Assembly: GCA_030654835.1 (NCBI GenBank)
Contig: JAURWS010000012.1
Coordinates: forward strand, 124,001 to 188,000
Direction of reading: 5' to 3'
DNA from: Gammaproteobacteria bacterium
Lineage (GTDB): Bacteria; Pseudomonadota; Gammaproteobacteria; Pseudomonadales; Pseudohongiellaceae
Length of the DNA stretch: 64,000 nt
Numbering within the stretch: position 1 is the first letter of the stretch; each line of letters begins with the position of its first letter. The translations under genes were made by a program, and so were the position numbers. Of the stretch, positions 17,864 through 28,213 are shown one piece after another. The notes beneath the pieces were generated by a model. It was given only the letters and a program-made list of their open reading frames with translations, searched no databases and had not been told where the DNA came from.

Positions 17864-17939
17864 GGGTCGTTAGCTCAGTCGGTAGAGCAGTTGGCTTTTA
17901 ACCAATTGGTCGTGCGTTCAAGTCGCACACGGCCCACCA
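17864..17939 (+). tRNA. tRNA-Lys (anticodon TTT)
   Basis: 76 nt with encoded CCA. The acceptor stem GGGTCGT pairs with ACGGCCC (one G-U pair). The D-loop contains TAGCTCAGTCGGTAGAGC, the anticodon loop is CTTTTAA, and the T arm is GTGCGTTCAAGTCGCAC. The gene is intact. Its last 49 nt are also the left copy of the 54-bp att repeat, so the element on its right regenerates a complete tRNA. Confidence 0.97.
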
Positions 17940-18157: not shown

Positions 18158-18964
18158 TCATGCTTCGTCGTCGTTATCCTCGTCAGAACGCAATATCTGC
18201 TCTTCATTCTCCCACCAGATGAATGCCATGTAAGTCCCGCGACCAGTAGCCCACACTGTTTCCATAACTTCATAATTTTCCGATTGAGGTGCGTCGATCC
18301 AAGTATCGGCATCTACTAGTCCTACGAGCGGGGGTAAATCCCCACGAAGCGCATGAGCATACGAAGGGGAGCATTTATCTATCGCACGTACCGGATAAAA
18401 CCATTGCGGCACCAAACGTGACTTGTGGTACCACATTCTCCTCGTCGAGGAATAGCAGGCGAGAATTACCGGATACTCGCAGTGATTGACGTACTTTATC
18501 GCAGCCGCAGATAAGCTCACTGAGAATGTTTGCCTTATGGATTCGATCACATCAAACGAGACGTCACTGCCCCGGATATGAGGGGAGAAGAGGTAAGTGG
18601 GCATTAAAAGCTCTGAGGCATACTCGTTGGCTATTTTTTCTCTACCGGCGATAACCTTATTAAGGGATGACCTATTCGGAAGTATCGACTCACTCTTACA
18701 TAGATTGCCAATTGCCCCCCGGTGCTTTAGCCAGTGGCCCAATTCGTGGCCGATTGAAAAGCGTTGTCGAGTAAACGGAGATTCCTCATTAACCGTAATA
18801 ATGGCTTTGTCATTTACCCCGATGATGCGTGCTTCACATCCCTTTAGGGGTCTTTGCTTTACAGTAACCCCTAAATGCTTCGCTACCTCAATGAGATTAA
18901 TTTCACTGGGTTTAGTAATGCCCAGCTCAGTTCTATAGAGCTTCTCAATAGCTTCTCTACTCAT
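18158..18964 (-). CDS. ImmA/IrrE-family metallo-endopeptidase
   Basis: A zinc protease-like protein of 268 residues. The HExxH zinc motif is in FSIGHELGHWLKHRG, with a downstream acidic candidate ligand in EKIANEYASELLMP, as in ImmA/IrrE. Known members cleave repressors: ImmA cleaves ImmR in ICEBs1, and IrrE cleaves DdrO in Deinococcus. After the protease core come about 100 residues with no recognised domain and an acidic tail (SDEDNDDEA). ATG 18964 is chosen over GTG 18973. It overlaps the preceding 130-aa gene by 8 bp and is the last gene of a three-gene operon headed by a sigma-like protein. No XRE repressor is adjacent, so its substrate is unknown. Confidence 0.87.
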   Translation of the reverse strand: MSREAIEKLYRTELGITKPSEINLIEVAKHLGVTVKQRPLKGCEARIIGVNDKAIITVNEESPFTRQRFSIGHELGHWLKHRGAIGNLCKSESILPNRSSLNKVIAGREKIANEYASELLMPTYLFSPHIRGSDVSFDVIESIRQTFSVSLSAAAIKYVNHCEYPVILACYSSTRRMWYHKSRLVPQWFYPVRAIDKCSPSYAHALRGDLPPLVGLVDADTWIDAPQSENYEVMETVWATGRGTYMAFIWWENEEQILRSDEDNDDEA

Positions 18965-19349
18965 CGTTTTCACTTAAATCAATGTCAAGATCGCGCAAGT
19001 CTTCCAATATTCCCTCCACATCGGCATCTGGAATATCTTCTCCTTCACGGAACGCGAGCGTTAAGCCTGCTGGAATCCTCCCCGAAACGATTGCAGCAAT
19101 AAGTAAGTCCTTTTTGGCGGATATCCCATTTGAGAAGCTAGACACCTTTCGGAGGTCGCTAGGGACTGCAACCTTCCGACTATAACGATCCACAATGTTT
19201 TGAATCAGTGGTTTCGTACTCTTGTAGTCCGCAGAATCTTGAATCCGATCTACGCCGTAAAACTGTTTCAACTCCACATCAGACTGACTGCATAGTTCAT
19301 GCTCGATCAACCCAAGCAAGCCATTTTGAAATTTCTCATTTGTAGTCAT
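18957..19349 (-). CDS. Hypothetical protein, middle gene of sigma-like/ImmA operon
   Basis: 130 residues, not recognised. No signal peptide or TM segment. The sequence appears mostly helical, with a central basic stretch (YSRKVAVPSDLRKVSSF) and a strongly acidic C-terminal 30 residues (FREGEDIPDADVEGILEDLRDLDIDLSENDE). It overlaps its upstream neighbour by 4 bp (ATGA) and the downstream protease by 8 bp, so all three are made together. Given the neighbours it could be an anti-sigma factor, protease substrate or adaptor; this is inference from context only. Confidence 0.75.
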   Translation of the reverse strand: MTTNEKFQNGLLGLIEHELCSQSDVELKQFYGVDRIQDSADYKSTKPLIQNIVDRYSRKVAVPSDLRKVSSFSNGISAKKDLLIAAIVSGRIPAGLTLAFREGEDIPDADVEGILEDLRDLDIDLSENDE

Positions 19350-19915
19350 ATTTGATTCCCCGTTTGCAGTTTCAGCAGGCTCCGAGCTACACGCTTCTCC
19401 GCAGCGCAGTATTCCTTCTCAGATAGGCACGCCTTGGCCATCGCTTCTGCCCTCCGATATCCTTCCCGAATTCCCATTAAGACCGCTGTGGCGCCCGCAT
19501 CCTCACTGAAGAGAGCAAAGGTCTTAACGATGGCATCATGATTTATAAGTAACATGGCTGGGTCGTCTGGGTCGTCTGGGTCGAATATCTCCTCGAAGTC
19601 CTGGTCTTCAGGAAGCGATGAAGCTACACACTCAAGTTTGGAACGCTTTGACCGGACTAAGTCAGAAGCTATGCTCTTCATTACTCCGAATAGGTGCTGC
19701 ACTAAAGTTAACTTCGTATTCCAGCGTCTTTCACCCTCTAAAGTTCTGACGATGGATTCGCTGATTAGTTCGTCTTCAGATAGTTCCGATTGCTTAAAAA
19801 TTAAGCGGGCTGAGCGGGCATATATCCGCAAGAGGACAACGTCATTATCCGACAAGCGCCTAATCGCTTCTAAAGCTAATTCAGGCGGATGGAATACCGC
19901 CGTTTCAACTTCCAT
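19346..19915 (-). CDS. RNA polymerase sigma-70-like protein
   Basis: 189 residues resembling a divergent ECF-type sigma factor. A region-2-like block (ELSEDELISESIVRTLEGERRW...FGVMKSIASDLVRSKRSK) occupies about residues 40-90, and a region-4-like helical block (GIREGYRRAEAMAKACLSEKEYCAAEKRVARSLLKL) ends the protein. A very acidic linker (DPDDPDDP) lies between. Start: ATG 19915 has GGAG 7 nt upstream. The open frame extends to 20104, but that would overlap the divergent DUF1508 gene and add an unrelated hydrophobic leader. It is the first gene of the operon with the 130-aa protein and the ImmA-type protease. Functional sigma activity is inferred. Confidence 0.72.
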   Translation of the reverse strand: MEVETAVFHPPELALEAIRRLSDNDVVLLRIYARSARLIFKQSELSEDELISESIVRTLEGERRWNTKLTLVQHLFGVMKSIASDLVRSKRSKLECVASSLPEDQDFEEIFDPDDPDDPAMLLINHDAIVKTFALFSEDAGATAVLMGIREGYRRAEAMAKACLSEKEYCAAEKRVARSLLKLQTGNQI

Positions 19916-20066
19916 AGTTTTCTCCAGTTCTTGAGTAGGCGGGTAGTTCGCTGAATCTGGACTCAGAGAAATTTTTTCCATCAGGATGTCTAGAATCTCG
20001 CCCAACCCCGCCAATATCAGTATGCAACCAATTCCGGTTGCAGGTAACTGAATAAAGGTGACAAAG

Positions 20067-20240
20067 ATGGGCACATTTGAAGTGTTTAAAGGTACAAACG
20101 GCAATTTTTACTTCCGTCTGAAAGCTCCGAACGGAGAAAAAATCGCACAATCGGAAGGGTACGCATCAAAGCAAGGCGCCCTCAATGGCGTGCAGGCTGT
20201 GAAGCAGTATGCTCCCGGGGCTAGAGTTGTAGAGGTGTAA
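20067..20240 (+). CDS. DUF1508 (YegP-like) small protein
   Basis: 57 residues matching one DUF1508 unit: FEVFKGTNGNFYFRLKAPNGEKIAQSEGYASKQGALNGV, a small alpha/beta fold. E. coli YegP has two such units; this is a single copy. The function of the family is unknown. ATG 20067 is chosen because AAAGGTG lies 6 nt upstream; a GTG at 20058 is possible. It is divergent from the sigma-like gene, with about 150 bp between starts that must hold both promoters. Confidence 0.85.
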   Translation: MGTFEVFKGTNGNFYFRLKAPNGEKIAQSEGYASKQGALNGVQAVKQYAPGARVVEV

Positions 20241-20848: not shown

Positions 20849-21211
20849 ATGGGTTACGCAAATTTCGTGGTGATGCCGACATTGGGAGAACTGAGGACGG
20901 CACTCCAGTACGTGCCGGACAATTGGCAAAGGCCCCTTAAGTGCATTACGGCGTTCGAGAAGCATAAGGCTGGCGAGCGGCTCGGCATTTATAAGGGCAA
21001 TGTCTGGTTAGCTCAAATTGGCAACAAGCCGACATATCTGGTGAACGTGGTGTGGCGAGTCGTAGAGGGGTCGGTACCGTCTGGGTTTAGAGTCGAGCAG
21101 ATCGATGACACCGACGATAATCGGATAACAAATCTCCAGCTTATAAATCGCAAGGGAGTAGTCCGGCTCCCCAAGTCCGAGCCCTTCACTTCGCCTGATA
21201 GCCAGCGGTGA
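20849..21211 (+). CDS. HNH-like protein, possibly degenerate
   Basis: 120 residues. The central part (VNVVWRVVEGSVPSGFRVEQIDDTDDNRITNLQLINR) follows the pattern of phage-type HNH endonucleases, in which VxHxNGDxxDNRxxNL carries the catalytic histidine; here the matching position reads VEQIDDTDDNR, so the histidine is replaced by glutamine. The N-terminal 50 residues are not recognised. It may be a catalytically dead homing-type HNH protein or a DNA-binding relative. The ATG is preceded by AGAAG at about 6 nt. It stands alone between noncoding segments. Confidence 0.6.
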   Translation: MGYANFVVMPTLGELRTALQYVPDNWQRPLKCITAFEKHKAGERLGIYKGNVWLAQIGNKPTYLVNVVWRVVEGSVPSGFRVEQIDDTDDNRITNLQLINRKGVVRLPKSEPFTSPDSQR

Positions 21212-21422: not shown

Positions 21423-22955
21423 ATGTTCAGCAAGCCAGTGTCACACTCGCCACAACGCATCTACCATATGAAGGCTGTATGTGGTGGCGGAAAGTCTTAT
21501 GCAATGCTGAAGCACATCAGGGAAAGCGATGGGGGCTGGTACATTTATGCAGTGCCTACAATTGCATTGGCAACGGAAATTGAGGCGGCGTGGGAGATAG
21601 ATAACGCGACATCGCAGGCCGACAGCCTACGTGCCGGGGAGCTTACCGTCATTCATTGCCAGAGGACATCTAAGGAGTCGGGCGCGGATCGTAGGCGGGA
21701 GTTGGAGGAAATTTTACGAAGTCCCTCCGCCAAGAATACCGTACTAATCACGCATGAGTTTTTACTAGGCGACCTGTTCAATCCGAAGTATGGGTTAGGA
21801 GAGTTGCTCAGCAACTGGCACATAATTATTGACGAAGACCCTGAGGTGATAACGGCGCCAGGTTTTCAGGATAATGGAAACGCCTATAGTGACCTGAGCG
21901 CGATAGCGAAGCCCCAGTGCGAGATTGGCAGGTTTTCTGTGCTTGAAGTGTCCCGCGACCACAGGCGGCGCCTCCGAGAACTAACTATGGGGACCAGCAA
22001 CGATACTCAGTTGCACCAGAACGTGCGTGCACTGTGTGAGGCCATTGTGGCGGACAGGAATGCGAAGCTGTTAGCGAAGCCGAGTCTACATGGGTATCTC
22101 TACTACCTAGTCAGCGCTAAGCCTCTTGCAAGGCTCGTTGCAGCGGCTGGTAGGGTTACCATTTTGGCATCGCGTCTAACGGGCCTCACTCGCCTATATT
22201 TGGATAAGTGTGGTATTGAAATTCGGGTCTCGGAAATCGTGCCAGACAACTCGTCGTATCCTAAGCAGTTGCAAGAGCGCATTTCCGTATGGCGAGTATG
22301 GGAACGCGGCAATATGTCGAAGCAGCGAATCGATGAGTACGGGGTCACGGCGGCACTGAATCAAGTCGAGAAACAACTTACTGCGGCGGGGAATTGTTCT
22401 ACCTTCCTGCTTCGTGCTAACGATGCCAATCATAAGGAGGCGAGAGGGCACCCCGGTGTCCTTAATGTGGTGTCCAAGGTCACTAAGGGACTGAACTCTT
22501 ATAGTAATTGCAGGGCTGTGGTGGATATAGCTTCATACAACCGGAACTCTCTATACAGCGAAGCCTACGAGTTGTTGGATCAACTGTTGGAGGTTGGTAA
22601 AGGAACTTGGCAAGCAGCAGTCGAGGAGACGCATTCGGAGCTTTCGGCTCAGGCGGCATTCAGGATAGGCATTCGTCGTATTCATGATGGACCACTTGAT
22701 GCCACCTACCTGATAGTTCTCCCAGACCTACGGACAGAGGACTACATGCGGAAAGTGTATCTACCTCACGCAGCTTTCAGAGGAGCAATGTTGGATGATG
22801 GACGGGAGGGAAAGTCTCGCGGTAGGCCTAAGGGAAGTGCAACAGATGAGAACATACGTGAAGTGAGAAGGATGACTCTAAGTGGTACCAGTGTACGTGC
22901 TGCGTGCGCTAACGTAGGTATAAGTCGAAGCACCTACGCTAAGTACATCCAGTGA
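21423..22955 (+). CDS. P-loop NTPase (DEAD-like helicase family) with C-terminal resolvase-type HTH
   Basis: 510 residues. Motif I/Walker A is AVCGGGKSYAM (residues 18-28) and motif II/Walker B is IIIDEDPE (134-141), as in superfamily-2-like helicases. The middle region (about 150-440) shows no signature I can name. The C-terminus (GRPKGSATDENIREVRRM to AACANVGISRSTYAKYIQ, about 465-510) is a helix-turn-helix like that ending serine resolvases, without a resolvase catalytic domain. AGGAG lies 9 nt before the ATG. The repeat array at 22956-23541 follows directly. An origin-binding or replication role for the element, or regulation, is possible; neither is shown. Confidence 0.7.
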   Translation: MFSKPVSHSPQRIYHMKAVCGGGKSYAMLKHIRESDGGWYIYAVPTIALATEIEAAWEIDNATSQADSLRAGELTVIHCQRTSKESGADRRRELEEILRSPSAKNTVLITHEFLLGDLFNPKYGLGELLSNWHIIIDEDPEVITAPGFQDNGNAYSDLSAIAKPQCEIGRFSVLEVSRDHRRRLRELTMGTSNDTQLHQNVRALCEAIVADRNAKLLAKPSLHGYLYYLVSAKPLARLVAAAGRVTILASRLTGLTRLYLDKCGIEIRVSEIVPDNSSYPKQLQERISVWRVWERGNMSKQRIDEYGVTAALNQVEKQLTAAGNCSTFLLRANDANHKEARGHPGVLNVVSKVTKGLNSYSNCRAVVDIASYNRNSLYSEAYELLDQLLEVGKGTWQAAVEETHSELSAQAAFRIGIRRIHDGPLDATYLIVLPDLRTEDYMRKVYLPHAAFRGAMLDDGREGKSRGRPKGSATDENIREVRRMTLSGTSVRAACANVGISRSTYAKYIQ

Positions 22956-23541: not shown

Positions 23542-26439
23542 GTGACTCCAGAATTATTTATAAAGACTTGGGCAGGGAACTCGCTCACCGAGAAGCAAGG
23601 CGCACAGCCGCATTTTGAAGACCTGTGCAGACTTCTAGGCGTCGATCCACCACGCAAAGATGGGGACTACTGCTATGAGCAGGGACTTCAAAAGATGCTC
23701 GGTGGAAAGGGTTTTGCCGATGTATGGAAGCGTGGATGTTTTGCGTGGGAGAACAAAGGCCCCGAGAAGGACTTAGGTCCCGCGCTGATGCAACTGAAGA
23801 ACTATGCAGAAGCTCTGGAAAATCCGAAAGTATTGGTGGTTTGCAACCGTGAGCGCATAGAGCTTCATCCGCGTTTTAACGGCTATCCCAGCACTCCCCG
23901 CGTCATCCTTCTGCAGGATATTGGTCACCCTGAAAGTCTTCAGGCGCTGCGCTGGTTGTTCTCTACTGACACCATAGACAAGCTGCGTCCTCTTAAATCC
24001 AACGCAGCTATCACAAGAGACGCCGCAGCAGACTTTGCCAAGGTTGCAGAGTCGATGAGGAAACGCGGCCTCGATAGTCAGCAGGTCGCACACTTTCTGA
24101 TTCAATGCATTTTCTGCATGTATGCCGAAGACGAGGGACTGCTAAACAGAGGGCCCGCCGACAACCCGCAGATATTCTCCAGTGTTCTTCGGAGTGCACG
24201 GGAAGACAGCGAGCGTGCGCGCAACCGAATTGCCAGTCTGTTTTCTGCGATGCAAACAGGTGGGCAGTATGGGAATGACGATATTGCATGGTTTAACGGT
24301 GGGCTGTTCAAGGTTATAGACGTGCCACCGCTTCAACCTGAAGATGTGGCTGCGCTTCGTGGTGCAGCGGAAAATCTTGATTGGAGAGCAATTGATCCGA
24401 CTATATTCGGAACGCTTTTTGAGCGAGGTCTTGACCCAGAGGCCCGTGCTCCTCTTGGTGCCCATTACACCGACGTGGAGACCATCAATAAACTAATCAA
24501 ACCTCTTATAGTAGAACCCCTGTCAGCAGAGTGGGAGTTGATAAAGCCGCTACTAGTTAAGGCTCACGGCAAGACGATTCGCTCCGCGCAGTACAAGGCA
24601 GCGAGGGGTGCATTTCAGGCCTATCTCGAACGACTTAAGAACTTCCGACTGCTTGACCCGGCGTGTGGCTCCGGCAATTTCTTATATCTCGGCATGCGCG
24701 CACTGAAGGACTTAGAGCACACAGCTCAGATTGATACAGAGCTGCTCGGTTTCGGCAGGCAGATTTCTATCGAAACAGGTCCGGCTAATGTTCTTGGTCT
24801 TGAGATTAACGAATATGCCGCAGAGCTTGCTCGTGTGACGGTGTGGATCGGAGATATTCAATGGAGTCAGGCCAATGGCAGGCCAATCGCAGACAACCCC
24901 ATTCTGCGTTCGTTGGACCTCATCGAACACCGTGATGCACTCATCAATCCAGATGATACTGAAGCCCAATGGCCTGTAGCGGACGTGATTGTTGGGAATC
25001 CACCTTTCTTGGGCGACAAGAAAATGCGGAGTGAACTGGGCGCGGCCTACACGGATCGCTTGCGAAATCTCTACGCTGGCAAGGTGCCGGGTGGTGCTGA
25101 TCTAGTGTGTTACTGGTTTCATAAGGCGCGTGAACAAGTAGTTTCTGGAAAAGCACACCGGGCTGGATTGGTTGCTACTAATAGCATTCGCGGTGGAGCC
25201 AATCGAAAGGTGCTCGACGCTATCACCAACGAACTTGTAATCTTTAACGCATGGAGCGACGAATATTGGGTGAATGATGGTGCCGCAGTACGAGTGTCAC
25301 TGGTTGCGTTTGCTGGTGAGAGCGCAAAGGATGAGATGCGCTTAGATGGACGTCTGGTAGAACAAATTAACCCCGACCTGACCGCTTGTGAGTCCGGTAG
25401 CGCTAGTAATGTCAATCTCAGCCTCGCCAGCCCTTTGCTCAGTAGTGCTAAAACTGCATTCCAAGGAATTACGAAAGGAGGTTTGTTTGATGTCCCCGGA
25501 GACACTGCACGCGCTTGGCTGAACTATCCCAACCCCAATGGCCGTCCGAATAGTGACGTACTAAGGCCGTGGCAGAATGGAATGGATGTAACGCGGCGCA
25601 GTAGCGATAACTGGATTATCGATTTTTCCGAACTTAACGAAGATGAGGCAATGCTGTATGAAACACCGTTCGCACATGTACTCGCACATGTAAAGCCTGA
25701 GCGTGACAAGGTTTCGCGTGAGCGCCGCCGCAGAATTTACTGGCAATACAATGAGACTGCTCCGGGCATGAGAAAGGCTATTGGCAATCTAAGTCGGTTC
25801 ATCGTGACTCCGGAAGTAGCAAAGCATCGTGTGTTCACATGGCTGCAAGCCAAAACAGTGCCGGACAAAAATCTTGTTGTTTTTGCACGCTCTGATGATG
25901 CGACCTTCGGCATTCTTCACTCGCGCTTCCATGAAGAATGGTCGTTGCGAATGGGGACGTCACTTGAGGACCGCCCTCGCTATACCAGTTCCACCACTTT
26001 CGAGACCTTCCCTTTCCCTGTCGGCCTGACGCCTAGTGATACTAAGGAACTTCCTGTAAAAGATGGACAACTTTACCTCCCGCTAGTTGCTTCCGAGCAT
26101 CTACCTGCGGCCCGTAAGATCGCTCAAGCTGCATCGCGTTTATATATGCTGCGCGAGACATGGCTGAACCCTCCCGAGTGGGTAGACCGTGTACCTGAAG
26201 TGGTGGCCGAATACCCTGACCGGATTCTTCCGAAGCCTCAATACGCCGCTGAGATAAAGAAACTGACCCTGACGAACCTCTACAACAAACGTCCCCCATG
26301 GCTGGATAGTGCCCATAAGGCTATCGATATGGCCGTAGCAGAAGCATACGGATGGAGCGACTATTCTCCAGAGATGGAAGACGAGGAGATACTGCGGCGA
26401 CTTCTTGCGATGAACATGGCGAGAGCTGCGAGGAGCTGA
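23542..26439 (+). CDS. MmeI-like Type IIL restriction-modification enzyme
   Basis: A single 965-residue polypeptide combining nuclease, N6-adenine methyltransferase and target-recognition regions. The N-terminal PD-(D/E)xK site reads Asp60-x9-Glu70-Asn-Lys72, the same D-x9-ExK spacing as MmeI. A helical connector follows. SAM motif I is DPACGSGNF (from residue 372) and catalytic motif IV is NPPF (486-489). The rest fits the target-recognition and C-terminal helical domains (SSTTFETFPFP). Such enzymes methylate one strand of an asymmetric site and cut about 20 bp away; the site cannot be read from sequence. GTG start with GAGAAG upstream. A BREX PglX protein is larger and lacks this nuclease motif. 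No separate methylase or specificity gene is present. Confidence 0.87.
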   Translation: MTPELFIKTWAGNSLTEKQGAQPHFEDLCRLLGVDPPRKDGDYCYEQGLQKMLGGKGFADVWKRGCFAWENKGPEKDLGPALMQLKNYAEALENPKVLVVCNRERIELHPRFNGYPSTPRVILLQDIGHPESLQALRWLFSTDTIDKLRPLKSNAAITRDAAADFAKVAESMRKRGLDSQQVAHFLIQCIFCMYAEDEGLLNRGPADNPQIFSSVLRSAREDSERARNRIASLFSAMQTGGQYGNDDIAWFNGGLFKVIDVPPLQPEDVAALRGAAENLDWRAIDPTIFGTLFERGLDPEARAPLGAHYTDVETINKLIKPLIVEPLSAEWELIKPLLVKAHGKTIRSAQYKAARGAFQAYLERLKNFRLLDPACGSGNFLYLGMRALKDLEHTAQIDTELLGFGRQISIETGPANVLGLEINEYAAELARVTVWIGDIQWSQANGRPIADNPILRSLDLIEHRDALINPDDTEAQWPVADVIVGNPPFLGDKKMRSELGAAYTDRLRNLYAGKVPGGADLVCYWFHKAREQVVSGKAHRAGLVATNSIRGGANRKVLDAITNELVIFNAWSDEYWVNDGAAVRVSLVAFAGESAKDEMRLDGRLVEQINPDLTACESGSASNVNLSLASPLLSSAKTAFQGITKGGLFDVPGDTARAWLNYPNPNGRPNSDVLRPWQNGMDVTRRSSDNWIIDFSELNEDEAMLYETPFAHVLAHVKPERDKVSRERRRRIYWQYNETAPGMRKAIGNLSRFIVTPEVAKHRVFTWLQAKTVPDKNLVVFARSDDATFGILHSRFHEEWSLRMGTSLEDRPRYTSSTTFETFPFPVGLTPSDTKELPVKDGQLYLPLVASEHLPAARKIAQAASRLYMLRETWLNPPEWVDRVPEVVAEYPDRILPKPQYAAEIKKLTLTNLYNKRPPWLDSAHKAIDMAVAEAYGWSDYSPEMEDEEILRRLLAMNMARAARS

Positions 26440-26632: not shown

Positions 26633-27904
26633 CTAATTGCTGAGTTGAGGGCTCCCAAGGGCACATGGACCGTCTGTAGCCGGGGGGGCGCTGAGGCAGC
26701 CGAAACTTATCAGCTTGTCGGCGGCCATCTGCAAAGCTGAGCGCTTCTCCCCTAGCATACTATGCAAAGCGTACACACGTGTCGTAACGCTGCCCCCGGC
26801 AGTGTGGTTTAAGCATCGACTTATCACAGGCACACTAACGCCGAGTTCCCCTAGCAGTGTGGCAAATGTCCTTCGCAGGTCGTGCGTAGAGCAAGGCGTT
26901 ATGCCCGCCTTCTGTGAAACTCGTTGGCACACCTGTCTGATGCCAAATACGGAAGTCTGGAAAATGGGTAGATTCGCAGGGCGACCCTCCGTGCACTCTT
27001 TAAGTATCTGCAGGGTAAGCGGGACGAGTGGCACGACAAAGGGCTCGCCATTCTTTGTGTGAGGTATCAGAAGCGTTTCCGCTTTCCAGTCTATGTGCTC
27101 CGGCTTTATGCCAAGCGCTTCGCTGGCCCTCAAGCCAGTGGCGAGTATCAACCTCAGGCAATGGGCAGGACGCCAGCCGTAATTGCCATCCCTCAGGACT
27201 TTGAAGAAGCTGGGCAACTCGGTTTGAGTGAATCGCCGTGTCCGGGGCGTTTCCTTGAAGACGCGAATTCCGTAGACCGGGCTGGAGTAGCTAAGGTCTT
27301 CGTACGCACCCCACTTGAAGCACGAAGATAGCGTCTCTCTAATTCTGTTGGCTTGGACGGGAGTGCTGGCCTTCATTCTGTGGATATATGCCTTCAGCTC
27401 CTGCCGGGCTTCATCTACCGATATTTGACCAGTGACAAAGGCTGAGCCCCTTAAGTCCTTCTGGACCTTATCAAGGTAGAACTCGTAGTTACGTGCGGTA
27501 GCCGGGCGCAAGTTGGGGAATACATGCTCAGCCATGAAGCGAGCCGCCAGTACGGCGAATGTCACGCCGGGGTAATACAGCGGGTTGGTCGGTTGTCGCC
27601 CCATGGGCACGGCAGAGAGTTGGAGAAGTGTGGAGCCTGCTGTATGACCGAGTGCGGCGCTCCGCTCTCTATCTCTAATCAAACTCTCTTGCGCCATAAG
27701 TGAGTCGTACTTGAGGCGAGCCAGCTCCAAGTCGCAGCCTAGGCTGATATCTACTCTCCTGCCTTTTTCCTTCTTTCTATAGTAGAAGCTCTTGCTCCCC
27801 GTCTTCTGTACCTTGACGGCAAAGCCGGGGGAACCGCCTTCAGTTAGGAAGAACGGGTGCGGACGAGGTTGGAGTGCACGAATGCTTTCAATGGTAAATT
27901 CCAT
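26633..27904 (-). CDS. Tyrosine-type site-specific integrase
   Basis: 423 residues from ATG 27904 (AGGGGGG about 8 nt upstream; a longer frame to 27958 was rejected). The N-terminal domain is of the DUF4102/P4-integrase type (GFAVKVQKTGSKSFYYRKK), then a SAM-like core-binding domain (TARNYEFYLDKV), then the catalytic domain with all expected residues: Arg in ATGLRASEAL, Lys in PHTKNGE, HDLRR, the second His in CLNHTAG and nucleophile Tyr in TTRVYALH. It catalyses recombination between the tRNA-Lys att sites. It lies at the right end, about 250 bp from attR, reading inward. The MmeI-like gene converges on it. Confidence 0.93.
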   Translation of the reverse strand: MEFTIESIRALQPRPHPFFLTEGGSPGFAVKVQKTGSKSFYYRKKEKGRRVDISLGCDLELARLKYDSLMAQESLIRDRERSAALGHTAGSTLLQLSAVPMGRQPTNPLYYPGVTFAVLAARFMAEHVFPNLRPATARNYEFYLDKVQKDLRGSAFVTGQISVDEARQELKAYIHRMKASTPVQANRIRETLSSCFKWGAYEDLSYSSPVYGIRVFKETPRTRRFTQTELPSFFKVLRDGNYGWRPAHCLRLILATGLRASEALGIKPEHIDWKAETLLIPHTKNGEPFVVPLVPLTLQILKECTEGRPANLPIFQTSVFGIRQVCQRVSQKAGITPCSTHDLRRTFATLLGELGVSVPVISRCLNHTAGGSVTTRVYALHSMLGEKRSALQMAADKLISFGCLSAPPATDGPCALGSPQLSN

Positions 27905-28159
27905 CAGTTCATCCCCCCTGAGGCAACAGCGCATGCATCGGGAGAAAGTCCGTTCCAAGAATCGGGGAGCGCTCGCGCTTGGCTTCCTAGTTCCCTGAAT
28001 CCATCTTTTGATTCCGAGGGAGCGGGTGCAGCAATGCTGATAACAGCGAGTATATGGGTGGGGTATTGAGTGTCCTCCTTTGAGGAACTCTTCTTATATA
28101 ATACGTTATATTCCATGGGTAGTGCCTTGATTAAATAAGGCTTTCCGTCGGCTATGGGA

Positions 28160-28213
28160 TTGGCTTTTAACCAATTGGTCGTGCGTTCAAGTCGCACACG
28201 GCCCACCATTTTC
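28160..28213 (+). repeat. Right att repeat (tRNA-Lys 3' fragment)
   Basis: Exact 54-bp copy of 17891-17944. Upstream sequence has no D arm or 5' acceptor strand, so this is a fragment and not a second tRNA. The 255 bp between it and the integrase start holds no gene; it does contain GAGTGTCCTCC at 28068-28078, which weakly resembles the left-end tandem repeat. Confidence 0.95.

Follow-up and report, generated by a model that had tools for sequence, protein, structure and literature searches.

A conserved trio of ECF-type sigma factor, CapH-tailed protein and CapP-like protease genes as a candidate proteolytic switch for divergent genes

Introduction

What can three overlapping genes, encoding a sigma-like protein, a small protein with an acidic tail and an ImmA/IrrE-type metalloprotease, do together at the end of a mobile island? 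The question is raised by a 64,000-nucleotide stretch of contig JAURWS010000012.1 (positions 124,001 to 188,000 of the forward strand; assembly GCA_030654835.1, a gammaproteobacterium of the Pseudohongiellaceae), the whole of which is called here the window. We propose that the trio works as a self-contained switch for inducing the gene transcribed divergently from it, in which proteolysis releases a dedicated sigma factor in a manner resembling the CapH/CapP system, and we give this reading a probability of about 0.66. It is carried by the conservation of the trio, the family relationships of its three proteins, a mirrored pair of promoter-like elements upstream of the sigma gene, and the genes found on the far side of that pair.

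Results

The trio is conserved as a unit

The three genes of the window are as follows.

18158..18973 (likely start ATG 18964), minus strand: CapP-type ImmA/IrrE metalloprotease, from PADLOC and Pfam matches
18957..19349, minus strand: middle gene (130 amino acids (aa), acidic C-terminus), with a helical N-terminal domain and a CapH-like tail
19346..19915, minus strand: sigma-like gene of the extracytoplasmic function (ECF) type, 189 aa from ATG, from open reading frame (ORF) translation and family matches

The tight overlapping unit described in a preliminary description of this DNA was recovered, with all three frames present on the minus strand. The sigma and middle genes overlap by 4 bp. 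The overlap of the middle and protease genes is 8 bp with ATG 18964; with GTG 18973, the start of the longer frame given by the ORF tool, it would be 17 bp. The ATG is the likelier start, because an 8-bp overlap is also seen in close relatives (L040, L041, L042, L045 and L083). Upstream of its ATG, the sigma-like frame has no stop as far as a TTG at 20104.

We assembled 90 loci with this type of protease: the window, 6 plasmids (out of 119 records with relatives of the protease), locus L023, 80 genome contigs (the best 80 of 284 relatives in a scan of 84,980 species genomes) and 2 viral contigs. Two copies of the window (L001 and L026) were left out of all locus counts, and a planctomycete plasmid found via its sigma gene, which has a diverged protease (L003), stands outside the 90. 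The middle gene was found in 86 loci and the sigma gene in 85, and all three genes, in the same order, in 85; the arrangement is therefore not due to chance. The preliminary description had made its reading depend on the genes being neighbors in other genomes, and in these 85 of 90 relatives they are. Gene order is the same in the six plasmid relatives and in the planctomycete plasmid. It should be noted that the family models were trained mostly on frames picked by their position upstream of the protease, and the trio count leans on these models; frames that had not been used for training were still found by them, for example the sigma frames in L099, L007, L101, L097, L092 and L003. Among the five loci lacking a full trio, two stop at a contig edge (L117, L093), one retains only a remnant of the middle gene (L080), and two have neither gene (L096, L102); the sigma frame is broken or partial in L058, L115 and L118. 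The sample is partly redundant, with 63 of the 86 full-length proteases left at 70% identity.

Judged by contig titles, the hosts include Gamma-, Alpha- and Betaproteobacteria, Acidobacteria, Nitrospira, Planctomycetota and others, many of them metagenome-assembled genomes in which binning errors are possible. Among 22 protease relatives on viral contigs, two (L120 and L121) carry the trio. The trio is rare: sigma and middle profiles found it in 2 of 369 gammaproteobacterial genomes (that of the window and one other), and capP was matched at E <= 1e-15 in 51 of the same 369. Scans for close relatives gave no matches on viral contigs to the 130-aa or 189-aa protein alone, and on plasmids one match to the sigma protein and none to the middle protein. 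Across 57 related genomes, the sigma protein matched the window itself and one short, weak segment (G048). Two further weak sigma matches in other gammaproteobacteria (L152 and L153) were set aside: neither locus matches the middle or protease models, and both look like ordinary ECF genes.

The three proteins

The protease of the window matches PADLOC capP at E = 1.6e-52 over residues 14-254 and Pfam Peptidase_M78 at 1.5e-12, and the best match of its family profile among solved structures is CapP (7t5t, E = 9.4e-25), ahead of IrrE. In an alignment of 62 rows, H76, E77 and H80 of the HExxH motif are invariant, and the downstream glutamate E112 is nearly so. By sequence, this protein is a member of the CapP lineage with an intact HExxH motif, and it is predicted to cleave. 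Thus an ImmA/IrrE-type protease without an XRE repressor, as the preliminary description had it, proves to be a CapP-type M78 protease next to a protein without a helix-turn-helix (HTH) match. As for the proposal that the switch is distinct from ImmR-ImmA, the absence of an XRE repressor as partner holds; the nearest system, CapH/CapP, had been missed, as had the mirrored promoter pair and the divergent gene described below.

The sigma-like protein of the window scores 18.3 bits against TIGR02937, below the curated cut-off of 42.9, and its ECF matches are weak, while 34 of 59 members of its family match TIGR02937 at E <= 0.01 (best 3.1e-11) and the best PDB match of the family profile is SigH of M. 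tuberculosis (E = 1.5e-6). An AlphaFold2 model (mean predicted local distance difference test (pLDDT) score 90, predicted template modelling (pTM) score 0.61) has two helical domains, corresponding to sigma-2 and sigma-4 only. Foldseek gave no match to this model at E <= 0.001; its rows 1-15 are sigma-factor or transcription-complex entries, and unrelated proteins appear lower down. With a second structure aligner, all 50 listed rows are sigma-factor, RNA polymerase or transcription-complex entries or, once, the sigma-like domain of PhyR, at Z scores of 6.5-8.6, a range in which the tool warns of possible unspecificity for helical folds (Z below about 13). Single domains superpose at 2.4 A over 70 residues (3mzy) and at 3.1 A over 82 residues (5uxx). 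ECF sigma factors carry a DxxDLxQE motif in region 2.2; the consensus of the present family reads DDLLQEA at the similar place, and the window has DELISES. Five of the 59 rows (L004, L007, L008, L009 and L023) were left out of the alignment used for the consensus and for folding. Taken together, the ECF sequence signatures and the predicted sigma-2/sigma-4 fold identify the first protein of the trio as an ECF-type (group 4) sigma factor, predicted to be active in transcription. This agrees with the sigma-like identity first suggested, which had been tied to the outcome of a structure prediction.

In the middle family, 53 of 69 members match PADLOC capH at E <= 0.1 (best 2.7e-6); in the same scan, each of 15 other listed PADLOC families was matched by one member. 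The capH match of the window protein covers only residues 68-122 and falls on the C-terminal half of the profile. No XRE-type HTH was found in it by Pfam at E <= 1; the only Pfam match, to the winged-HTH domain of MCM (residues 100-120, E = 0.17), was taken as chance. Within the tail lies a T97-x-A99-x-R101 motif, in which R101 is invariant and T97 and A99 are nearly so, and which we regard as a putative cleavage site. Excerpts of PMC10904395 describe a modelled complex in which single-stranded DNA is contacted by Arg118 of DdrO, a residue of its cleavage-site loop; by analogy, R101 might be conjectured to be its counterpart. The model of the middle protein is all helical (pLDDT 81.5, pTM 0.41); 5 of 69 rows (L004, L005, L008, L009 and L023) were left out of the alignment before folding.

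The planctomycete plasmid bears on the origin of this protein. Its operon (L003:4430-6658) consists of a sigma gene, a hybrid middle gene and a diverged CapP gene. The hybrid protein begins with the N-terminal region of the middle family (E = 2.3e-4), continues into a full CapH match, and has weak XRE HTH matches. The hybrid joins this N-terminal region to CapH beside a sigma gene, which suggests that, of the two parts of the middle protein, the helical N-terminal domain is the one linked to sigma; it is a putative sigma-binding domain. The plasmid is possibly an intermediate between CapH/CapP and the trio.

A predicted mirrored promoter pair separates the trio from the divergent gene

The intergenic region between the trio and the divergent gene contains a mirrored pair of two-box, ECF-like promoter elements. 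Promoter regions were compared in 81 loci (L058, L115, L116 and L118, in which the sigma match is short or split, were left out). The core GGACA-N0-32-TGTCC was found upstream of the sigma gene in 53 of them, compared with 0.65 expected from dinucleotide shuffles; in the 57 loci that had not been displayed before the pattern was chosen, it was present in 34 (27 of 47 after removal of redundancy). Reading outward, the consensus is TGTCC(G/A), about 16 nt, and then a second box such as CCGCAT, GAGCAT, CCGCCT or CCGTCT. ECF promoters with TGTC-type -35 and CGTC-type -10 boxes are known.

The outer boxes of the two arms resemble each other within a locus. With arms picked without regard to the likeness of their boxes, 6.84 of 9 positions match within loci and 5.19 between loci (43 non-redundant loci; reached in 0 of 20,000 permutations), and the sum of matches is 294, compared with a mean of 158 (standard deviation 7, maximum 184) in 2,000 shuffles of the letters of the right box within each locus. 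The likeness of the spacers is far smaller (4.86 within and 4.29 between loci, of 12 positions; 98 of 20,000 permutations). An earlier version of the within-locus test, in which the best-matching pair was chosen wherever a locus offered several, had given 10.2 versus 8.26 of 20, and the repeat without this choice and with the shuffle control for composition agreed with it. Because the outer box varies between loci and matches within a locus, islands may carry mutually private sigma-promoter pairs. Among 28 other loci without a usable exact core, the two-box model found a pair in 20 (reached by at most 5 of 100 shuffles). The core is also present in 5 of 16 canonical CapP loci (about 3.7 kb each), in two of them upstream of capH (L021, L027), and no outer boxes were seen by eye at these five sites; elsewhere in 1.29 Mb of trio loci it occurs 34 times. 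In canonical CapP loci, a CapH-like gene of 106-167 aa lies upstream in 15 of the 17 listed, as judged by eye.

For the window, the following pair is predicted.

19934..19963, minus strand: predicted promoter of the sigma operon (-35 AGTCCAG at 19957-19963, -10 CCCGCCTA at 19936-19943)
19987..20016, plus strand: predicted mirrored divergent promoter (-35 TGTCTAG at 19987-19993, -10 region 20006-20016)

When the two-box model was built from 52 other loci, the best outward pair of the window was exactly 19963 (minus) and 19987 (plus). None of 500 shuffles reached its score, and training on four close relatives instead gave the same pair. Elsewhere in the 3.84-Mb genome, the integrase included, the pattern derived from these two sites has no exact match; allowing one mismatch gives nine matches, compared with 13 control matches. 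This fits a private, local regulon. A scan of the region with the sigma-70 consensus gave 3 sites, as many as the mean of the shuffles, and all of them lie outside the interval that separates the trio from the divergent gene.

Divergent genes and the link to defense

The gene on the other side of the promoter pair in the window is the following.

20058..20240, plus strand: divergent gene for a DUF1508 protein of 60 aa, start GTG 20058 or ATG 20067, from Pfam

Its product matches Pfam DUF1508 at E = 3.5e-20 and the UPF0339 protein yegP (2k8e) at E = 3.9e-14, and is by these matches a relative of E. coli YegP. We clustered by BLAST the divergent-strand ORFs within 4 kb of the sigma gene in 85 loci, gene calls being longest-frame guesses. 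By cluster membership, 43 loci have a known defense class on this side: 18 are similar to cyclic oligonucleotide-based antiphage signaling systems (CBASS), 22 are of the ThiF/multiubiquitin kind, 2 are Pycsar, and one (L116) has patatin only. The link to a defense module surmised earlier is thus borne out at about this half of the loci. Pfam, run on 83 proteins of eight divergent clusters (28 of them drawn from the ThiF cluster), identified ThiF in 23, a DncV-like nucleotidyltransferase in 16, SAVED in 13, DUF6527 in 10, multiubiquitin in 7 and patatin in 5. PADLOC, run on ten cluster representatives, identified a CBASS cyclase, effectors and E2, and a Pycsar cyclase. By the same BLAST test, no defense class was found on the other sides of the 85 loci, a contrast that is biased by queries taken from the divergent side; flanks of at least 3 kb were available upstream in 73 loci and downstream in 67.

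The remaining loci include small genes, such as those of DUF1508 (window, L046, L057), DUF2188, DUF3892 and unnamed families, which are candidates for uncharacterized stress or defense effectors. Small genes lie close opposite the trio at 20058-20240 of the window and in L008, L046, L053, L057, L071, L100, L106, L108 and L114.

Discussion

Proposed mechanism and alternatives

The proposed switch would operate as follows. In the resting cell, much as the preliminary description had envisaged, the middle protein would hold the ECF sigma factor through its N-terminal helical domain. A signal of damage or infection would activate the protease; single-stranded DNA, to which CapP and PprI respond, is the likeliest candidate. 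The protease would then cut the CapH-like tail of the middle protein. The freed sigma factor would direct RNA polymerase to both mirrored promoters, so that its own operon and the divergent gene would be upregulated; the output would be YegP in the window and CBASS, ThiF/multiubiquitin or Pycsar operons elsewhere. In its logic, this would be CapH/CapP with the DNA-binding repressor domain swapped for a sigma-holding domain. A broader form of the proposal describes a class of immune controllers in which a CapP-like protease destroys a CapH-derived anti-sigma factor, the freed ECF sigma factor fires the mirrored pair with positive feedback, and islands carry mutually private sigma-promoter pairs; here we consider the chances evenly balanced.

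Several observations weigh against the proposed switch. When the middle-family profile was compared with 13 CapH sequences in two groups, the matches were weak, with E values of 0.021 and 0.16 and probabilities of 2.2 and 0.4 percent, though both alignments fall on the C-terminal tail. Neither profile nor model searches matched the middle protein to any known fold, anti-sigma or other. The promoter pair of the window is degenerate (AGTCC, TGTCT), and its inverted repeat matches at 17 of 34 positions, a level reached by 127 of 200 shuffles. The two-box model found no significant pair in 8 of the 28 loci without a usable core, some of which are at contig ends or are distant members. The assignment of -35 and -10 boxes is argued from the ECF consensus, and covariation does not settle it: the top residues for one outer-box base lie in sigma-4, which would favor the opposite assignment; residue-box covariation in the sigma family was not used as evidence, because the signal is mixed from both domains and confounded by relatedness. 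On the divergent side, no recognized defense class was found in 42 of the 85 loci, and YegP, the window's own predicted target, has no proven role in defense. In the planctomycete plasmid, genes for ThiF/JAB and DUF6527 lie downstream of the trio on the same strand, and thus ThiF is not divergent there.

The inverted repeat itself, as expected of a site bound by a dimer, could be an operator, in which case the sigma-like or the middle protein would bind DNA as a dimeric repressor, like that of CapH/CapP, and sigma activity would play no part; the score of the window sigma-like protein below the curated cut-off is in line with this. However, the two boxes of each arm are spaced by about 16 nt, like those of a promoter, the outer box is CCGTCTA or CCGTCTT in several gammaproteobacterial loci and thus resembles an ECF -10, the region 2.2-like DDLLQEA is kept in the family consensus, and no HTH was found in the middle protein of the window, so that we consider an operator quite improbable. 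The identity of the substrate among the trio proteins is an inference, and the protease might act on the sigma factor itself or tune its levels, with the middle protein as an adaptor or chaperone and not an anti-sigma factor. We regard this as unlikely, given that the CapH-like tail with the invariant R101 belongs to the middle protein and that the planctomycete hybrid has the sigma-linked region on a whole CapH.

The position of the trio at an island end beside tRNA-Lys would suit a module that controls excision or transfer of the element, like ImmR-ImmA, and not a defense or stress gene. Yet the promoter pattern of the window is exact only at the two facing sites, with none at the integrase, and relatives adjoin CBASS, ThiF and Pycsar genes, which makes control of the element very unlikely. 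The least credible explanation is a toxin-antitoxin pair, with the protease or the sigma-like protein as a toxin neutralized by the middle protein. A tight overlapping operon on a mobile element is compatible with it, and the depositors of 7t5t named CapP a toxin, whereas the three-gene order is tied to a divergent partner and to mirrored promoter boxes, so that it hardly needs to be entertained.

Relation to known systems

The trio shares with CapH/CapP a protease of the CapP lineage, a CapH-like tail on its partner, and, for many relatives, a location by CBASS and ThiF/ubiquitin-like operons. It differs in the partner, in which no HTH was found in the window, in the added ECF sigma gene, and in the mode of control, which is predicted from the mirrored promoters to be positive and not derepression. 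ImmR/ImmA and DdrO/IrrE (PprI) likewise have an ImmA/IrrE-type metalloprotease that relieves transcriptional control; their partner is a DNA-binding repressor, whereas that of the trio is CapH-tailed, without a detected HTH, and is accompanied by a sigma factor. In ECF sigma/anti-sigma pairs, of which SigmaE/RseA with its regulated proteolysis is an example, a sigma factor and its holder are also encoded in one operon, as the sigma factor and putative holder are here, with predicted autoregulation and a likely proteolytic trigger; by contrast, the trio has the ImmA/IrrE protease within the operon, and its putative holder matches no known fold. Another type of regulator is SiwR, reportedly a WYL-domain activator.

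According to excerpts of PMC13373217 (EMBO J 2026), CapH/CapP, CapW and CapK/CapS are controllers of immune operons that act through a repressor, and no sigma factor is named in these excerpts as part of such a controller. CapK/CapS controls CBASS and Bub operons, YegP follows capK/capS in 57 of 443 cases, and CapK and CapS are likened there to anti-sigma kinases and their antagonists. CapK/CapS thus controls CBASS operons, as is proposed for the trio, and is likewise found before YegP; unlike the trio, it consists of a kinase and a STAS-wHTH repressor, with neither a protease nor a sigma factor named in the excerpted text. By the count of the same source, CapW or CapH+CapP adjoins 219 of 544 Bub operons, and some of these cases may be the trio under the CapP name. 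Both PprI and CapP respond to single-stranded DNA, according to the excerpts of PMC10904395. No description of the trio was found in the literature searched, and the founding CapH/CapP paper or the Bub papers may contain an earlier account.

If the proposed switch is real, a sigma-releasing controller would make immune expression switch-like and self-amplifying, and would account for the way in which a single regulator can serve CBASS, ThiF/multiubiquitin, Pycsar and YegP-type genes. It would also predict promoters that can be recognized from sequence, and the matched boxes could supply natural, mutually private sigma-promoter pairs.

The island and its other genes

The island, about 10.3 kb long and located in tRNA-Lys, carries the trio at one end and has the following landmarks.

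17908..17938, plus strand: island end inside tRNA-Lys, from an exact 31-bp repeat and the tRNA call
28177..28207, plus strand: opposite island end, where the 31 bp of the tRNA-Lys end recur exactly as a direct repeat
26633..27958, minus strand: tyrosine integrase of the island, Pfam Phage_integrase at 1.9e-18

The 31-bp repeat has 0 expected occurrences in shuffles. These exact repeats, flanking an island with a tyrosine integrase, confirm the placement in a mobile element given in the preliminary description. The island also encodes a 120-aa protein with a weak HNH match (20849-21211), a 510-aa protein with weak DEAD-helicase and resolvase-type HTH matches (21423-22955), and an MmeI-like type IIG restriction-modification enzyme (23542-26439).

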